Shown here one piece after another: positions 56,975-63,493 of a DNA stretch of 64,000 nt. The number at the start of each line of letters is the position of its first letter. Within the stretch, counting starts at the first letter, position 1. This stretch comes from Pseudomonadota bacterium (GTDB taxonomy: Bacteria; Desulfobacterota; Syntrophorhabdia; Syntrophorhabdales; Syntrophorhabdaceae), in the NCBI GenBank assembly GCA_026388275.1, contig JAPLKB010000058.1:676-64675 (forward strand), written 5' to 3'. The position numbers were made by a program, and so were the translations under genes. Under the pieces are notes generated by a model. That model made no database searches. It saw nothing but the letters and a program-made list of their open reading frames with translations, and was not told where the DNA came from.

Positions 56975-57190
56975 TTGAATATATTATCATGTAACCTTGC
57001 GAGAGAAATGGAACTTGTGGCAAGGGAAGAAGGCAAGCCTATCAGCGCATTGATTCAGGATGCTGTAAGGATTTCGCTGAAAGAAAGGCAGAAAAAGGAA
57101 TTCTATCAAATTAAGTATATTGTGAGAAACGCAATACTTTTGGCAGACTTGACAAACAGCATACAATCACATATAATCGAATATAGTTAA
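56975..57190 (+). pseudogene. RHH (CopG-type) antitoxin remnant
   Basis: The frame LAREMELVAREEGKPISALI and VRISLKERQKKEF is the helix-helix part of a ribbon-helix-helix antitoxin. The N-terminal beta-strand expected before it (such as RTTISLPEE) is missing. The only start is TTG 56975 with no ribosome-binding site, and the tail after the RHH part is not typical. It ends four bases before the Fic gene. A PIN-toxin fragment lies beyond Fic at 58404-58535, so this may be half of a former RHH/PIN pair. It could instead be a short but still used partner of Fic. Confidence 0.5.
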
Positions 57191-57194
57191 CAAT

Positions 57195-58259
57195 ATGCAA
57201 AAGGCAATGACTAAACTCGACAGAAGACTATCCCCCATTCCTTCTGAGGTTTTATCGAAAATAGCCAAAATTGATGAAATTAAAGGGCGTTGGATTGGCG
57301 GGCTGCAAATTAACCCTCAAGCTTTAGGCCGCTTAAAACGGTCTGTTTTGGTTACTTCCACCGGAGCTTCTACCCGTATTGAAGGGGCGAAACTCACTGA
57401 TAAAGAAATTGAAAAGCTGATGCAGGGCATAACTACAAAAAAGTTTACTGATAGAGATTCACAGGAAGTGCAAGGATACTATGAACTGCTTCATAATGTA
57501 TTTGATTCCTGGAAGTCTATCAAATTCAGTGAAAGCACAGTCAAACACTTTCACAATCAGTTGCTCAAATATGTAGAGAAGGACGAAAGACATCGAGGGG
57601 ATTATAAGAAGACAGAAAACACTGTCGAAATGTTCGATCAAAACGGCAAGAGTATCGGTACCGTATTTGAACCTACCAAAGCCTATCTTACCCCTAAAGA
57701 AATGCAGGAACTTATGGAGTGGGCAACGCAGGCACTTGAAGAAAAGAAATATCACCCCCTCCTTATAATCGGCAACTTTCTGGTTGAATTTCTCAAAATT
57801 CATCCTTTTCAGGATGGTAATGGAAGGGTTTCCCGTATTCTGACAAACCTGCTTCTGCTTAAAGAAGGCTATGCCTTCATGCCCTATGTTTCGCATGAGA
57901 AGATAGTGGAAGATAATAAAAACAATTACTATTTAGCGCTTGTAAAAAGTCAGAAAAGTTTCAATAGAAAAACCGGGAATATTTTTCCATGGCTTAATTT
58001 CTTCCTTGATGTTTTGCTCAAACAGTCCGAGATAGCCATCAAACTAATGGGAAGCGAGGATGTGGAAAAGCTGCTTTCGCCGAAACAAATGGAAGTCTGG
58101 AACTATCTGCAAAAAGTTCCAGAGGCAGCGCCTATTGAAATTTGCCGGGAAACCAAAATAGTAAAACCTACGGTGCTTCAGGCTCTCAACAGGCTGGTTG
58201 CTCTCAGAAAGGTTGAAAGAATTGGAATGGGAAGAGGAACGAGATATAGGAAACTGTAG
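57195..58259 (+). CDS. Fic family protein (class II, self-inhibited AMPylator)
   Basis: A 354-residue Fic protein, which usually transfers AMP to Tyr, Ser or Thr of target proteins. The catalytic motif HPFQDGNGRVSR is intact around residue 200. An N-terminal inhibitory helix carries the S/TxxxEG motif as STRIEG near residue 60, marking a class II protein with its own antitoxin-like helix. A winged-helix domain at the C-terminus (about 295-354, ending ALNRLVALRKVERIGMGRGTRY) suggests DNA binding and self-regulation. Start ATG 57195 is uncertain; ATG 57207 is also possible. It lies between fragments of an RHH/PIN module. Confidence 0.9.
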   Translation: MQKAMTKLDRRLSPIPSEVLSKIAKIDEIKGRWIGGLQINPQALGRLKRSVLVTSTGASTRIEGAKLTDKEIEKLMQGITTKKFTDRDSQEVQGYYELLHNVFDSWKSIKFSESTVKHFHNQLLKYVEKDERHRGDYKKTENTVEMFDQNGKSIGTVFEPTKAYLTPKEMQELMEWATQALEEKKYHPLLIIGNFLVEFLKIHPFQDGNGRVSRILTNLLLLKEGYAFMPYVSHEKIVEDNKNNYYLALVKSQKSFNRKTGNIFPWLNFFLDVLLKQSEIAIKLMGSEDVEKLLSPKQMEVWNYLQKVPEAAPIEICRETKIVKPTVLQALNRLVALRKVERIGMGRGTRYRKL

Positions 58260-58302
58260 GCAAGTTCTATCAGAGAGCAATTCGTCAAATTTTCTGGTCA
58301 TA

Positions 58303-58403
58303 GATTGCCGCAAGCTCCCCTGCGGCAATCTACACAGTGAGCACAGCTCGCGAGAAGGGGAGGCTCACACGGCTTTGCCGGGGGAGGGGGCGACGCAAGC
58401 CCC
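58303..58403 (-). repeat. Dispersed GC-rich repeat, family 2, copy B (inverted)
   Basis: The minus strand repeats the two blocks of 35933-36019: CGTCGCCCCCTCC with CCGGCAAAGCC, then GCCTCCCCTTCTCGC and CACTGTGT. Its outer end is a perfect hairpin, GATTGCCGCA (58303-58312) with TGCGGCAATC (58321-58330). The element runs from 44 bases after the Fic stop exactly to the first codon of a truncated PIN-domain frame, so it, or the event that placed it, removed the front of that gene. Confidence 0.7.
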
Positions 58404-58535
58404 GGTAATAGTATAATTGAATGTGCCGTGTCGGGCAAAGCCGATGTAATTGTAACAGGCGACAAGGAGATGCTGAAATTGAAAGAATTTGAAGGGATCA
58501 GGATTATTAGTTTGAGAGAGTATTGGGAGAGTTAA
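58404..58535 (+). pseudogene. C-terminal fragment of a PIN-domain toxin (VapC-like)
   Basis: The frame gives GNSIIECAVSGKADVIVTGD, then KEMLKLKEFEGIRIISLREY and a stop. This is the characteristic last third of PIN-family toxins (TIGR00305 type), including the conserved DxIVTGD segment with an acidic active-site residue. The N-terminal two thirds, with the first catalytic Asp, are absent. The fragment begins abruptly at the edge of repeat family 2 copy B. With the RHH remnant at 56975-57190 it suggests a former toxin-antitoxin pair split by insertion of Fic and the repeat. Confidence 0.75.
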
Positions 58536-58776: not shown

Positions 58777-61197
58777 TTACTGCTTCCAATCGTAGGTCAA
58801 CTTGCCGCACCCACACCTAATTTTATTTTCCACATTGTCAAAGTATTTGATAGAAATAGACTTTCCACACTCATCACAGTAAAAGATAAGAATGGTTTTC
58901 TCAATGTCTTCCCATATTGCCGCCAAGTCTGCAATACTTTCATTGAACTCGTTGTCATGGGACGTGACATTACCGATAAACATTGGTATTCCCTTTAGTC
59001 TTTGAATGTTGGCCTTGTCCTTCAATTCGCTTCCTTTTTTTGAAATTCTACTGTGCACAGCATCCAATAGTTCGGGGGCCATTCTTTTTTCATTTATTTC
59101 ATTGTAACGAAAAGCCACTTGTGCATCTATGTTGTTGGCGATTTCTTTCATTATCTTTTCAGTATAAACCCTGATATCGTTACCAAGTCCATTAGTGTTT
59201 TTGTCCTCAAATTTTTTAAGAATTCGTTCTTTGATATCGGTTGTACCTTTTTCAATTCCTACCCCGTTCTCTTTTGACCATGTAAAATTTTGAATTAGCC
59301 ATCCTTTGTTCTTGACATCACTGGCTACTAGTTCAAAGAATCCCTGATCGTGTGTGAGCAACAGAATTTGGTATTCGCCGAACTTATCAGTTAGCAATTT
59401 TGCAAACCTCGTTCTGTGTGGTCTGTCGAAACTGGAAATCACATCGTCAAGAATAAAAAGCTCGTTCTGCTTATTGAATGCTTTCACGGAAGCTAAAAAA
59501 AATGATAGGCCAAGACAATTGATGTGACTTTCACTTAAATAAGCGATTGGTGGCGTTTTGGTCTCATCAAAGAAGCTATACTCGATTGTTATTCCGACTA
59601 AGTCATCGTTTTTATCCTTGATTGGCACAAGCTTAATATCCTTAATCTTCTCATTGGGGTTCATGGCGGTGTAATATTCATCAATATTTGTGGAGAATGT
59701 CTTTAGAAAGACATTTAAAGCTTCTTCTTGCCTTTTAATAAAATCTGCAAAAAGCACTTGAAATGTTATTTGTTGTTTCGTCAGTATTTCTTGCTGTCTC
59801 TTAATGCTTTGATATTGATTGTAAGCAGTAACTGTTTGAAATAGCTTGGTGTAAATCTGGAATTTTGTATTTGATCCCTTGCTTTCCGTGAGTTCCTTTG
59901 CCGTGTCTTGCGCTTGCTTGGCAAGCTCAGATATTTCTTTCTTATTAATTTGTATTTTGCTCGGCTCATGAATTGAGTCTTTAGCTATCAATTCCTTTTT
60001 TAGTTCATCAGTAAAGACATTCAAGGAGGTTCTAATTTGCTGAACCTTCTCAAGAAGTGTGGCTTGTTGTTCCTCTTTGAAAAGCTTCTCTTTGAGTAGC
60101 CCATCTATTGTATTGACGTTGACTCGCAGAGTATCCTTTAATTTCTGCCCTTGTTCTTTCAACTTATCTTTCTTTTGCTCCAGCGTTTCTAATTCTCTAA
60201 TCCTTTCTTCTAATTCTTTAATTAATTCTATTTTGCTCTTTTCTTGTAGACAGAGTGGGCAATAATCATCTTGGACAACATCGTTTTTCAAAACACTCTG
60301 CCCTTCTTTCAGTAAAGCAAGGAGTTGTAATTTTTGAATATTCTCAGGATCTTTTCGCAGTTCGGTGTATATTGTATGATAAGTTTTGTAGCTTGAATGT
60401 ATGTTATCAATGTTCCCAAAAATTTCCGTTAAGTTTTCTCCAACCTTAGTATAGAAACTTATTTGTTCCAAAAGAGCTGTATCTCCTTTGGCTTCAATTG
60501 TTTTTAGAACATCCTTGATATCTTTATGCGATTTGATGTCCTTTCCAATATGCAAAGGTTTTATCAACAGGTTTGCTCCTGCAAAAAGTTGGTCGTCGGT
60601 ATAAGCATTTTGCCCGAGGTTATCGAGAACAACAGTATGTTGGGCGTTTTTTTGATTATCAAAGTTGGCCGATTTAATGTTGCGGGCAATTCTTCCAGCA
60701 GACTTCTTAAGAAGACCACGGACATCAGCTACAGCGGAAAAGCCAATTATGTTTTGGAGTTTCTCTATCTTTTCCCCAGGGGTGGCGATAATGAATTCCA
60801 CCAAGTCTCTGTAGCGTAAAATTAAATTTTCAGATTGAGTAGCTAGCAGATATTCTTTGAAATTATCAGTCGTATTGGATACGGAAGTCCTTAATGAACC
60901 GTCAATACTTTTTGTTGCATTCAATTTATTATTGGAATAATGAATATTAACGAATGCATCTTCATTGTCAGGAATGAATAGATTGCGTAATGACCCTCTT
61001 CCTTTGGTTGCGCCAGTTTCTTTGCTAATCAAATGCTCAACACCATCTGAATAGTACCACTCAATAGCATCAGTTAAAGAACTTTTGCCCGATCCATTTT
61101 CACCAAATATCAGAATCGATTTATTATCCAGATTTAGCGGCAAAGGATCTTTGATACCCCTGATTCCGCTGATGTTGATTGATTTAATTTTTGTCAT
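58777..61197 (-). CDS. Rad50/RecF-like ATPase with zinc hook and C-terminal zinc ribbon
   Basis: An 806-residue SMC/Rad50-like ATPase. Walker A FGENGSGKSS is at 31-40. Coiled coils (about 260-500) are split by a zinc-hook motif CPLC (313-316). The ABC signature region is YLSESHINCLGLSFFLAS (553-570), with Walker B LFILDDVISSFD (580-591) and switch His616 in LLLTHD. A helical C-terminal domain has GNVTSH (742-747), reminiscent of HEPN-like GN/RN-x3-H motifs. The protein ends in a zinc ribbon (Cys774, 777, 795, 797). ATG 61197 is chosen because GAGGAA lies six bases before it. RloC-like anticodon nucleases share the hook, but their nuclease motif is not evident. Last gene of the cluster. Confidence 0.85.
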   Translation of the reverse strand: MTKIKSINISGIRGIKDPLPLNLDNKSILIFGENGSGKSSLTDAIEWYYSDGVEHLISKETGATKGRGSLRNLFIPDNEDAFVNIHYSNNKLNATKSIDGSLRTSVSNTTDNFKEYLLATQSENLILRYRDLVEFIIATPGEKIEKLQNIIGFSAVADVRGLLKKSAGRIARNIKSANFDNQKNAQHTVVLDNLGQNAYTDDQLFAGANLLIKPLHIGKDIKSHKDIKDVLKTIEAKGDTALLEQISFYTKVGENLTEIFGNIDNIHSSYKTYHTIYTELRKDPENIQKLQLLALLKEGQSVLKNDVVQDDYCPLCLQEKSKIELIKELEERIRELETLEQKKDKLKEQGQKLKDTLRVNVNTIDGLLKEKLFKEEQQATLLEKVQQIRTSLNVFTDELKKELIAKDSIHEPSKIQINKKEISELAKQAQDTAKELTESKGSNTKFQIYTKLFQTVTAYNQYQSIKRQQEILTKQQITFQVLFADFIKRQEEALNVFLKTFSTNIDEYYTAMNPNEKIKDIKLVPIKDKNDDLVGITIEYSFFDETKTPPIAYLSESHINCLGLSFFLASVKAFNKQNELFILDDVISSFDRPHRTRFAKLLTDKFGEYQILLLTHDQGFFELVASDVKNKGWLIQNFTWSKENGVGIEKGTTDIKERILKKFEDKNTNGLGNDIRVYTEKIMKEIANNIDAQVAFRYNEINEKRMAPELLDAVHSRISKKGSELKDKANIQRLKGIPMFIGNVTSHDNEFNESIADLAAIWEDIEKTILIFYCDECGKSISIKYFDNVENKIRCGCGKLTYDWKQ

Positions 61198-61393
61198 CTT
61201 TTTCCTCGGTTGCGCCAAGTTCTTCTTGAAATAGTTGTCCCATTGCGTTCTCGATGTTGGTATCGGTCAGTTTCCCTTCACTATACAAAAAAATCAGCTT
61301 CTCAACAGTCTTTTTGTCTACCCCTTCTATATCCATAACCTCTGCAAAAAACTCCTCAATTAGCTGCTTGCCGCTTTTAATTTCGTCACTCAT
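61184..61393 (-). CDS. Small acidic helical protein overlapping the ATPase gene
   Basis: A 69-residue protein, almost entirely helical and acidic (EIKSGKQLIEEFFAEVMDIE, then KKTVEKLIFLYSEGKLT, tail EEKDDKN). I do not recognise a family. Its stop lies 14 bases inside the ATPase gene, so the two are translationally coupled; ATG 61393 follows CAGGGG. A small partner made just ahead of a Rad50-like ATPase could be a subunit or inhibitor, but that is inference from arrangement only. Confidence 0.7.
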   Translation of the reverse strand: MSDEIKSGKQLIEEFFAEVMDIEGVDKKTVEKLIFLYSEGKLTDTNIENAMGQLFQEELGATEEKDDKN

Positions 61394-61416
61394 GATAAAA
61401 TGCCCCTGTTTTGTAT

Positions 61417-61881
61417 TTATTCAAAGTATGGCCAATTGATTATGAAGTTAGCCTTTAGTTTTTTATCTAATATCTCATACCCGGATTTATTGTTACAGAT
61501 AGGATACACACCGTATTTTTCAACGAAGTCTAGAATGAAATAGCTTTCGAGGTCTTCAACTCTGTTACTCCAGAATTTGCGAAGCATTTCGAAGTTAATA
61601 TAAGTAAAATAAAGTTGGTTCACTTTGCCGTAATTGATAAGCCCCCAGTTCTTACTTTTACCTTCAAAGTGTTCTGTTAGTCGACTACCGATACTGTTTG
61701 TTTTTTTCTCGCTCATTCCAATGTAGAGCAATCGAGATGTTTTGAAAGGGTATTGAATTCTCGTCTTATCATTAAAAATGAAATATAGTCCTGTTAGCCC
61801 CATAAGTGGCTTTATGTTCTGTATTTCAAATACCTTCGGGCTGTCAAAAAATATCTTAAGTTCTGCTGTTTCTTCGGTCAT
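61417..61881 (-). CDS. GIY-YIG nuclease-like protein
   Basis: A 154-residue single-domain protein. GLY (31-33) and YIG (53-55) give the two signature strands. Arg67 (IGSRLTEHF), Glu112 (EDLESYFIL) and Asn130/131 (PICNNKSG) match the remaining conserved residues of the GIY-YIG active site. No DNA-binding domain is attached, so targeting must come from partners. It is gene four of six on this strand, with small intergenic gaps of 44 and 23 bases. Restriction-type or abortive activity is possible. Confidence 0.72.
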   Translation of the reverse strand: MTEETAELKIFFDSPKVFEIQNIKPLMGLTGLYFIFNDKTRIQYPFKTSRLLYIGMSEKKTNSIGSRLTEHFEGKSKNWGLINYGKVNQLYFTYINFEMLRKFWSNRVEDLESYFILDFVEKYGVYPICNNKSGYEILDKKLKANFIINWPYFE

Positions 61882-61925
61882 CTTACTATATATCCAAATG
61901 TATTAAGTAAAGGGTGCGTTATTTT

Positions 61926-62153
61926 TTATCTTAGTTTTGACTCATATCCCTTTTTAACATATTTACTAATATAACTATTCAAACCTTTTCCGGCCACGGC
62001 AAGCAATTTCATTTGTTCAATATTTGCACTACTGGTACTTCTATGGGTATAGAGATAAACCCTGCCAGTACTGAATTGAACAGTGATAGAGTCATCACCA
62101 ATTTCATAGGCTAAGACTCCAGAATCTCCCCCTAAGTTCTTGTATCGTTCCAT
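61926..62153 (-). CDS. KTSC-domain protein
   Basis: A 75-residue protein matching the small KTSC domain (PF13619): a beta-rich half (GVLAYEIGDDSITVQFSTGRVYLY) followed by a helix and basic end (GKGLNSYISKYVKKGYESK). KTSC proteins are of unknown biochemical function; some occur with lysyl-tRNA synthetase, nucleases or phage genes and are thought to bind nucleic acid. AGAGGAA precedes ATG 62153, which lies 21 bases after the Shedu gene. Confidence 0.75.
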   Translation of the reverse strand: MERYKNLGGDSGVLAYEIGDDSITVQFSTGRVYLYTHRSTSSANIEQMKLLAVAGKGLNSYISKYVKKGYESKLR

Positions 62154-62174
62154 AATAAATTTCCTCTTGCTAGA

Positions 62175-63155
62175 TCACTCCCTCAAGCCGTTTTTTACTA
62201 TGAATTTGGCTCGTTCAAATAATTCGTCATACAAAACAATATCAATATTTCTCAAATTCCGCCTATACAGCTCAAGCGTCTTCAATTTTACAGCTTTTTC
62301 TTTGTCACTTCCCGATAACTCAGACCTGCTACCTATTATCAAAATACATTCAACGTCACGAGTAAGGTCTGTAATTTTGTTGCCTTCTGAAGTGTAATTA
62401 TCAGCCTGACTGTTAATCTCCCAATTTGCCTTCTGAGATAAAATCTGGCTGACAGCATCTGATAAATCATTTGATAAACACCATGCATCTGATCTATTTT
62501 TTCGATTTTTGAACAATGATGTACTTGGCTTCTTCAATTCTACCAGCTTTGTAAATCTCATGTCTGATAAAAGGAAATCTGATATAACCTCATTTCCTCC
62601 ATCTAAATCTGAACCTGAAACATGTGCCTCTCTTTGGAGTATTTTCAGATATCGGTACTTAAGGCCATAGCCAAATATCCATTCATTTTTTTCAAAAAAT
62701 ATCTGCCATTCTGGTTCAGTGATACTTTTGCCTTGTGACAATTTATTCTCAAATTCTATCAAAGACTCTTTTCTACCTAAAATAGTATTTATGTCATCTT
62801 GCGAAAGCTTGTTTCGGATAATATTCTTCAGGGCAGGAACTAGTGACGCTGTATCTGTAGCAGCAAGGAGGGACAAAATTCCTTCCGTATTGCCTGTTAT
62901 TTCTACAAACTTCCCCGTTTCCTTAGGTACGACTGATTTAATCATACTGTATTTATCAAGGTGATAATATAGATTTCCTAAGTCATTAATTGACAGGGAA
63001 CATGTAAACTTAGATACACCAGTAGTAGAATCGTATGCATAGAGATTGGCGGAAACTTCATCAATCTCATTTCCTCCTTTATTCAAGCCAGAAATGTTTA
63101 AGAACAATTTGCATCTTTCATCGCTTCCAATCTCAAAAGCATGGTCAATGCTCAT
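62175..63155 (-). CDS. sduA: Shedu anti-phage nuclease SduA-like protein (DUF4263)
   Basis: A 326-residue protein ending in the Shedu/DUF4263 nuclease domain (about 145-320). The entry motif WQIFFEKNEWIFGYG is present. The PD-(D/E)xK core is visible as Asp193 (VISDFLL) and Glu206-x-Lys208 (LVELKKP), with Gln237 in DAVSQIL. The first 140 residues form a separate N-terminal domain, probably sensing or oligomerisation, that I do not recognise. ATG 63155 is preferred, with GAAGG seven bases upstream; TTG 63161 would overlap the previous stop. Shedu is an established single-gene defence system. Here it is embedded in a longer operon, two bases after the WYL-like gene. Confidence 0.88.
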   Translation of the reverse strand: MSIDHAFEIGSDERCKLFLNISGLNKGGNEIDEVSANLYAYDSTTGVSKFTCSLSINDLGNLYYHLDKYSMIKSVVPKETGKFVEITGNTEGILSLLAATDTASLVPALKNIIRNKLSQDDINTILGRKESLIEFENKLSQGKSITEPEWQIFFEKNEWIFGYGLKYRYLKILQREAHVSGSDLDGGNEVISDFLLSDMRFTKLVELKKPSTSLFKNRKNRSDAWCLSNDLSDAVSQILSQKANWEINSQADNYTSEGNKITDLTRDVECILIIGSRSELSGSDKEKAVKLKTLELYRRNLRNIDIVLYDELFERAKFIVKNGLRE

Positions 63156-63157
63156 TA

Positions 63158-63493
63158 TCAAACCTTCGCTATGACATATTTATATCTATCCGATTCCGGA
63201 TTGTATTCAGGAGACTCCTTGAATGGAGTAACAGGTTCACAAATAGCAACATTTGAGAGATGTTCTATAAAAAACATTCGAAAGCTTGGTAGTATCTTTT
63301 CGCTGGCACTGTCACTAACCCCAGATGTCTGTAAAATGTCAACTTTAGTTGATTCAGTTCCGTCATTTTTGCGCATAATATATATGGCATGTGGATTACC
63401 AATTCGGCTACCAGATGTTTTACCGGGTTTGTTGTACTCAAATGATATTGCCACTTTCCTCTTTATTGCATCCTTAAGTGTTTCGATTATCAT
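63158..63493 (-). CDS. WYL-like small protein, first gene of the defence cluster
   Basis: A 111-residue protein resembling a stand-alone WYL-type domain: IIETLKDAIKRKVAISFEYN, then SGSRIGNPHAIYIMRKNDG, and a final SFRMFFIEHLSNVAI. WYL domains bind nucleic acid or nucleotide ligands and commonly regulate defence operons; no helix-turn-helix is attached here. ATG 63493 is chosen because AGGAGG stands five bases before it; an upstream in-frame start exists but has no site. It is two bases ahead of the Shedu gene and probably co-regulated with it. Confidence 0.68.
   Translation of the reverse strand: MIIETLKDAIKRKVAISFEYNKPGKTSGSRIGNPHAIYIMRKNDGTESTKVDILQTSGVSDSASEKILPSFRMFFIEHLSNVAICEPVTPFKESPEYNPESDRYKYVIAKV

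Follow-up and report, generated by a model that had tools for sequence, protein, structure and literature searches.

The window, meaning the whole stretch of 64,000 nucleotides analyzed here, carries six consecutive ORFs on the minus strand (63493-58777), which encode, in order, a WYL-like protein, a Shedu nuclease, a KTSC-like protein, a GIY-YIG nuclease, the product of a small ORF and a Rad50-like ATPase. The last three genes are referred to below as the trio. The initial annotation had described the same run, and its layout was reproduced exactly, with gaps of 2, 21, 44 and 23 bases followed by a 14-base overlap between the small ORF and the ATPase gene. Internal promoters and terminators had been named as possible marks of independent units; terminator-like sites were absent from the six-gene run, and promoter-like sites were no commoner there than in shuffled sequence. 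An Rfam search found no RNA families in the region.

The flanking repeat is indeed present, as an intergenic element of ~70 bp at 58341-58411 of the window. With some 50 copies in the genome, it proved to be a common dispersed repeat and not specific to the island, and the flanking repeats were therefore rejected as element boundaries. In the same part of the window (56975-58535) lies a Fic-family gene (57195-58259; PADLOC SoFic, 143 bits), preceded by a short RHH-like ORF, and an apparent C-terminal remnant of a PIN toxin was recognized by eye around 58420-58535. A related Fic gene (287 bits) at locus L103 is likewise convergent to the ATPase gene of the trio there. Upstream of the operon, just past the window end (L039:5936-8331), DUF4160-like and nucleotidyltransferase-like ORFs and a small HTH/toxin-like pair were seen by eye.

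The Shedu (SduA) nuclease is a 326-residue protein with a short N-terminal domain (62175..63155, minus strand). Its gene starts with ATG, a further TTG lies upstream at 63161, and it is unique within this genome. The assignment is certain, as the protein matches PF14082 with 100.3 bits against a cut-off of 27 and the PADLOC SduA profile (PDLC00382) with 497.5 bits over profile positions 1-321 of 336; solved relatives are 8ti8 and 8ps4. Directly upstream lies the gene of the WYL-like protein (63158..63493, minus strand), a stand-alone protein of 111 residues without an HTH. Both this protein (18.4 bits) and its homologue at locus L062 (20.1 bits) fall under the Pfam WYL cut-off of 21.8. The label given in the initial annotation was nevertheless upheld by the predicted fold: in a search with a model of modest confidence (pLDDT 64.7), the top 14 rows were all WYL proteins (Z 9.0-6.9), among them PafBC (Z 9.0), BrxR (9.0), DriD (8.8) and CapW (8.2). 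For DriD and CapW, some of the matched entries are structures with bound ssDNA.

The predicted effector of the trio is a GIY-YIG nuclease of 154 residues (61417..61881, minus strand), and the protein is taken up by its catalytic domain. Its Pfam score (18.6 bits) lies below the cut-off of 22.4, and relatives score 14-18 bits. The catalytic set G31/Y33, Y53/G55, R67, H71, E112 and N130 is, however, invariant in an alignment of 34 sequences, and the GIY-YIG label of the initial annotation was retained because this motif set outweighs the score. PADLOC gave just a weak match of 20 bits to PDC-M57B for this gene. The middle protein of the trio (61184..61393, minus strand) has 69 residues and is supported by homologous ORFs that precede the ATPase gene elsewhere; its stop overlaps the ATPase start. 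Three helix-like stretches were discerned in it by eye, and no recognizable homologue of known function was found, either in the sequence search of solved structures or in PADLOC with 36 such small proteins. Sequence searches of solved structures with the GIY-YIG and WYL proteins likewise returned nothing convincing.

The Rad50-like ABC ATPase (58777..61197, minus strand, ATG start) has 806 residues, and its family label, again as first annotated, is certain (Pfam SMC_N, 63 bits). Walker A, the CPxC zinc hook, the SESH signature, the LDD Walker B and the switch histidine are all invariant or nearly so; D583 and D584 of Walker B are invariant in 41 sequences, and among the related ATPases that were examined the hook is either CPLC or CPFC. 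The best PDB match of the AlphaFold model (pLDDT 83.8) was Rad50, with a Z score of 27.0 and an rmsd of 3.1 over 286 residues. Past residue 654, outside the fold matches, the protein continues with a helical domain that contains an invariant histidine and has weak Pfam matches such as DUF4145 and CTD11, and then with a four-cysteine zinc ribbon. The top PADLOC matches of the ATPase were to LmuB, with 84 bits. Viral contigs held only a C-terminal fragment of the ATPase, and neither Shedu, GIY-YIG nor WYL homologues were found in them.

Trio loci were collected by tblastn against plasmids and by searching GTDB genomes with an alignment of ATPases; the seeds of this genome scan were three ATPases, each with a GIY-YIG partner. 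The scan yielded 53 loci with related ATPases, spread over more than a dozen phyla, including Bacteroidota, Alphaproteobacteria, Desulfobacterota-type deltaproteobacteria, Planctomycetota, Chloroflexota, Nitrospirota, Elusimicrobia, Cloacimonadota and one archaeon (an Aenigmatarchaeote). Nearly all of them have an ORF of 58-79 codons ahead of the ATPase gene, in most cases overlapping its start. The ATPase start and sufficient upstream sequence are retained at 48 loci, and a gene of the same GIY-YIG family adjoins the ATPase module at 44 of these (29 on the same strand, 15 divergent), a figure that favors the clade of the GIY-YIG-bearing seeds. Because of this bias, the occurrence of the GIY-YIG family was assessed separately. 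Among 198 Bacteroidota genomes it was found solely in the seeded trio genome, on 72,556 plasmids it occurred once, beside a trio, and it was absent from phages; as far as tested, the family is thus specific to the trio. The divergent arrangement is nearly confined to alphaproteobacteria, with one planctomycete in addition, and it indicates that co-transcription is not obligatory for the trio. At one locus (L053:7684-7775) the GIY-YIG gene has decayed to its last codons next to an intact small ORF and ATPase gene, a possible case of effector loss.

ATPases 81-85% identical to that of the window are found in unrelated phyla and therefore point to recent transfer. Among 46 genomes of the window's class, no further one carries the full trio, and one has a distant ATPase relative. 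Dozens of genomes carry the trio without Shedu, and its three genes are a unit that stands alone and has been widely transferred. GIY-YIG nucleases also act in DNA repair, for example UvrC. Together with the Rad50-like fold of the ATPase, such repair roles would fit an SbcCD-like complex for DNA repair or for the maintenance of plasmids or other mobile elements, for which the island would be a mere place of residence. However, the patchy spread within the class, the recent transfer across phyla and the restriction systems and other defense genes among the neighbors of the trio all count against this explanation, which we regard as very improbable.

These neighbors are varied. Type III restriction systems lie directly beside or near the trio at three loci (L061, L066 and L079), and single loci have a Type IIG restriction system (L064), a Type II methylase (L055), Hhe/PDC-S37 (L083) or a Mokosh-like helicase (L069). 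Furthermore, a PDC-S06 (AAA_13, RloC-like) ATPase stands beside the trio twice (L077:693-6430 and L089:7365-12980), and the gene between the two is once WYL-like and once KTSC-like.

The KTSC-like gene of the window (61926..62153, minus strand) encodes 75 residues. Its name, taken from the initial annotation, is weak, as the window protein has no Pfam match to KTSC (PF13619) and its relatives reach 12.6-14.3 bits against a cut-off of 25. The gene nonetheless belongs with the trio. Of the 45 trio loci placed on the ATPase tree, 11 have it, the window among them, and at all 10 others it lies directly at the edge of the trio, from -31 to 118 bp before the GIY-YIG gene or 17-69 bp after the ATPase gene. 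Its distribution requires ~7 state changes on the tree, compared with 10.0 when the labels are shuffled, and 2% of the shuffles gave values as low. The KTSC-like gene is thus an optional accessory of the trio. A role as a partner of Shedu was also considered and was rejected, because the 10 other trio loci with a KTSC-like gene all lack Shedu. On plasmids, KTSC-like genes also adjoin other defense genes, and there the gene looks like a wandering small defense accessory. Five plasmid loci (L109-L113) have it beside an OLD-type endonuclease and a methylase, beside sbcD or beside a MukB-like gene.

More distant pairs of a small ORF and a Rad50-like ATPase gene carry no GIY-YIG gene (L050:4802-7466, L038:7224-9756, L033, L047, L048 and L049). 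One such pair sits between pglX and pglZ in the BREX-5 locus of a Halorhabdus plasmid, and another adjoins BrxC/PglY-like genes (L038, named by eye).

Shedu and the WYL-like protein form a second unit. The pair recurs in a marine biofilm genome (L062), again directly before the trio and in the same order, with the WYL gene directly upstream of Shedu as in the window. The two WYL proteins are 56% identical. The N-terminal domain of the L062 Shedu is conserved and recognizable, whereas its nuclease domain has diverged, which suggests, from sequence comparison, that the WYL protein acts together with the N-terminal part of Shedu. At L077 a more remote WYL-like gene stands ahead of the trio, where it follows the PDC-S06 ATPase, and beyond these three loci a search of 675 genomes found no relative of the WYL family. 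We conclude that the WYL-fold protein belongs with Shedu.

How the two units relate was left undecided in the initial annotation, which offered two options, a single composite system or Shedu accompanied by another system with the GIY-YIG or the 69-residue gene at its head. In the first case, a shared ATPase sensor would drive both Shedu and the GIY-YIG nuclease, and the WYL and KTSC-like proteins would act as regulators. The tight single-strand run without internal terminators is in keeping with such a system, as are the recurrence of WYL, Shedu and trio at L062, a locus whose ATPase branches well away from that of the window, and the near restriction of the WYL family to such loci. However, the closest relatives of the window ATPase (81-85% identical; L051-L054) have neither Shedu nor WYL in the sequence examined, Shedu/WYL is found at just 2 of about 45 trio loci, and the Shedu relatives in Bacteroidota have no WYL gene nearby. 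The composite system was rejected as the main reading because the trio mostly occurs without Shedu, and we consider it unlikely. It is the second option that stood. The possibility raised earlier that the homologues occur mainly apart from each other thus holds for Shedu with respect to the trio, and clearly fails within the trio. At the same time, the L062 recurrence and the rarity of the WYL family suggest that the Shedu/WYL and trio modules are linked more closely than random neighborhood in a defense island would produce, with a joint function as a conjecture. Given the distance between the two loci on the ATPase tree, the modules either joined twice or were joined anciently and then mostly separated by loss.

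The gene content, the operon layout, the conservation of the trio, the catalytic motifs, the folds and the defense-island context were established here, and we rate the region as a nuclease/ATPase defense module beside a Shedu variant. We think it probable that two defense modules lie here in tandem and are transcribed together, module A consisting of Shedu and the WYL-fold protein, and module B of the trio with the optional KTSC-like gene; co-transcription and an anti-phage function are what we infer for both. The N-terminal domains of Shedu proteins are sensors of DNA ends, and binding of ssDNA is known for several WYL proteins (PMC12904381, PMC12409362), while Rad50 and Lamassu (LmuB-type) ATPases recognize DNA ends or secondary structures (PMC10586767, PMC12904381). 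In module B, dimers of the ATPase joined at the zinc hook may search for DNA in an abnormal state, for example ends, hairpins or recombination intermediates. Driven by ATP, the ATPase would engage on such DNA and thereby alter the small middle protein, which would hold or recruit the GIY-YIG nuclease in a putative complex, and the nuclease licensed in this way would cut the DNA of the invader or, less specifically, all DNA. In module A, the WYL protein may bind a signal in the form of nucleic acid, for example ssDNA, and then relieve or direct Shedu through the N-terminal domain of the latter.

The pair of small ORF and Rad50-like ATPase may be a general add-on to defense systems. A bolder extension, which we hold to be doubtful, would make the trio a new defense complex with an interchangeable sensor made up of the ATPase and the tiny middle protein. 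This sensor would combine with different effectors, GIY-YIG in the window and BREX genes at other loci, and the WYL and KTSC-like proteins would serve as interchangeable signal adaptors that tie it to Shedu, RloC-like or restriction modules in one cooperating unit.

The initial annotation knew of no described system that combines exactly these genes, and this still holds for the PADLOC models, none of which describes the trio, and for the open literature searched, where no paper on the gene set was found. Conserved across more than a dozen phyla and covered by none of the PADLOC models, the trio is a ready candidate for a novel type of anti-phage defense. Its nearest counterpart is Lamassu (ABC-3C; LmuA-LmuC-LmuB, DdmABC). 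Both have the order effector, small protein and Rad50-like ATPase (PMC10586767), which in the trio is found on one strand in the window and at the 29 same-strand loci, and both occur in defense islands of many phyla. LmuB is the top PADLOC match of the ATPase, and both ATPases have a zinc hook, a feature common to other Rad50-like families and thus unspecific. The trio could accordingly be read as a true, diverged Lamassu that acts by abortive infection, with the GIY-YIG nuclease as LmuA, the small protein as LmuC and the ATPase as LmuB. However, the Walker B glutamate of LmuB is generally replaced by glutamine (PMC10586767), whereas the trio ATPase has LDD without this change. LmuA combines an N-terminal effector with a C-terminal docking domain, and the GIY-YIG protein lacks the latter and consists of the catalytic domain alone. 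As these two tested features failed, the trio was not filed as Lamassu. Furthermore, the middle protein is only 58-79 residues long, the GIY-YIG gene is sometimes divergent, and the ATPase bears the added C-terminal helical domain and zinc ribbon. None of 36 small proteins matched LmuC in PADLOC, a search that short, fast-evolving proteins may escape. A true Lamassu is thus improbable in our view, and the trio, as a separate system, would extend a Lamassu-like design to a GIY-YIG effector.

GIY-YIG nucleases are known as antiviral effectors in SNIPE/PD-lambda-1 and PD-T4-3 (PMC13190303, PMC10952713), and the trio would share with them the use of such a nuclease in defense. SNIPE, however, unites DUF4041 and GIY-YIG in one protein, whereas the GIY-YIG nuclease of the window is a separate 154-residue protein tied to an ATPase, without DUF4041. 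PbeABCD/DndDE comprise a coiled-coil ABC ATPase with a cysteine hook, a small partner and a nuclease (PMC10853773), a combination that resembles the trio. The trio ATPase nevertheless matches LmuB and Rad50 best and not PbeC, and neither DndE nor an HKD nuclease-helicase accompanies it. BrxR, CapW, DriD and PafBC share the WYL fold with the 111-residue protein as its top structural matches; they are HTH transcription factors, whereas the window protein is a bare WYL domain encoded beside a nuclease. Finally, the Shedu of the window has the PD-(D/E)xK nuclease domain (DUF4263) of SduA. The described type I and type II Shedu are single-protein systems (PMC12409362), whereas the window version combines a short N-terminal domain with a separate partner gene of the WYL fold, and it thus represents a case in which Shedu appears to have acquired a separate WYL-domain sensor.
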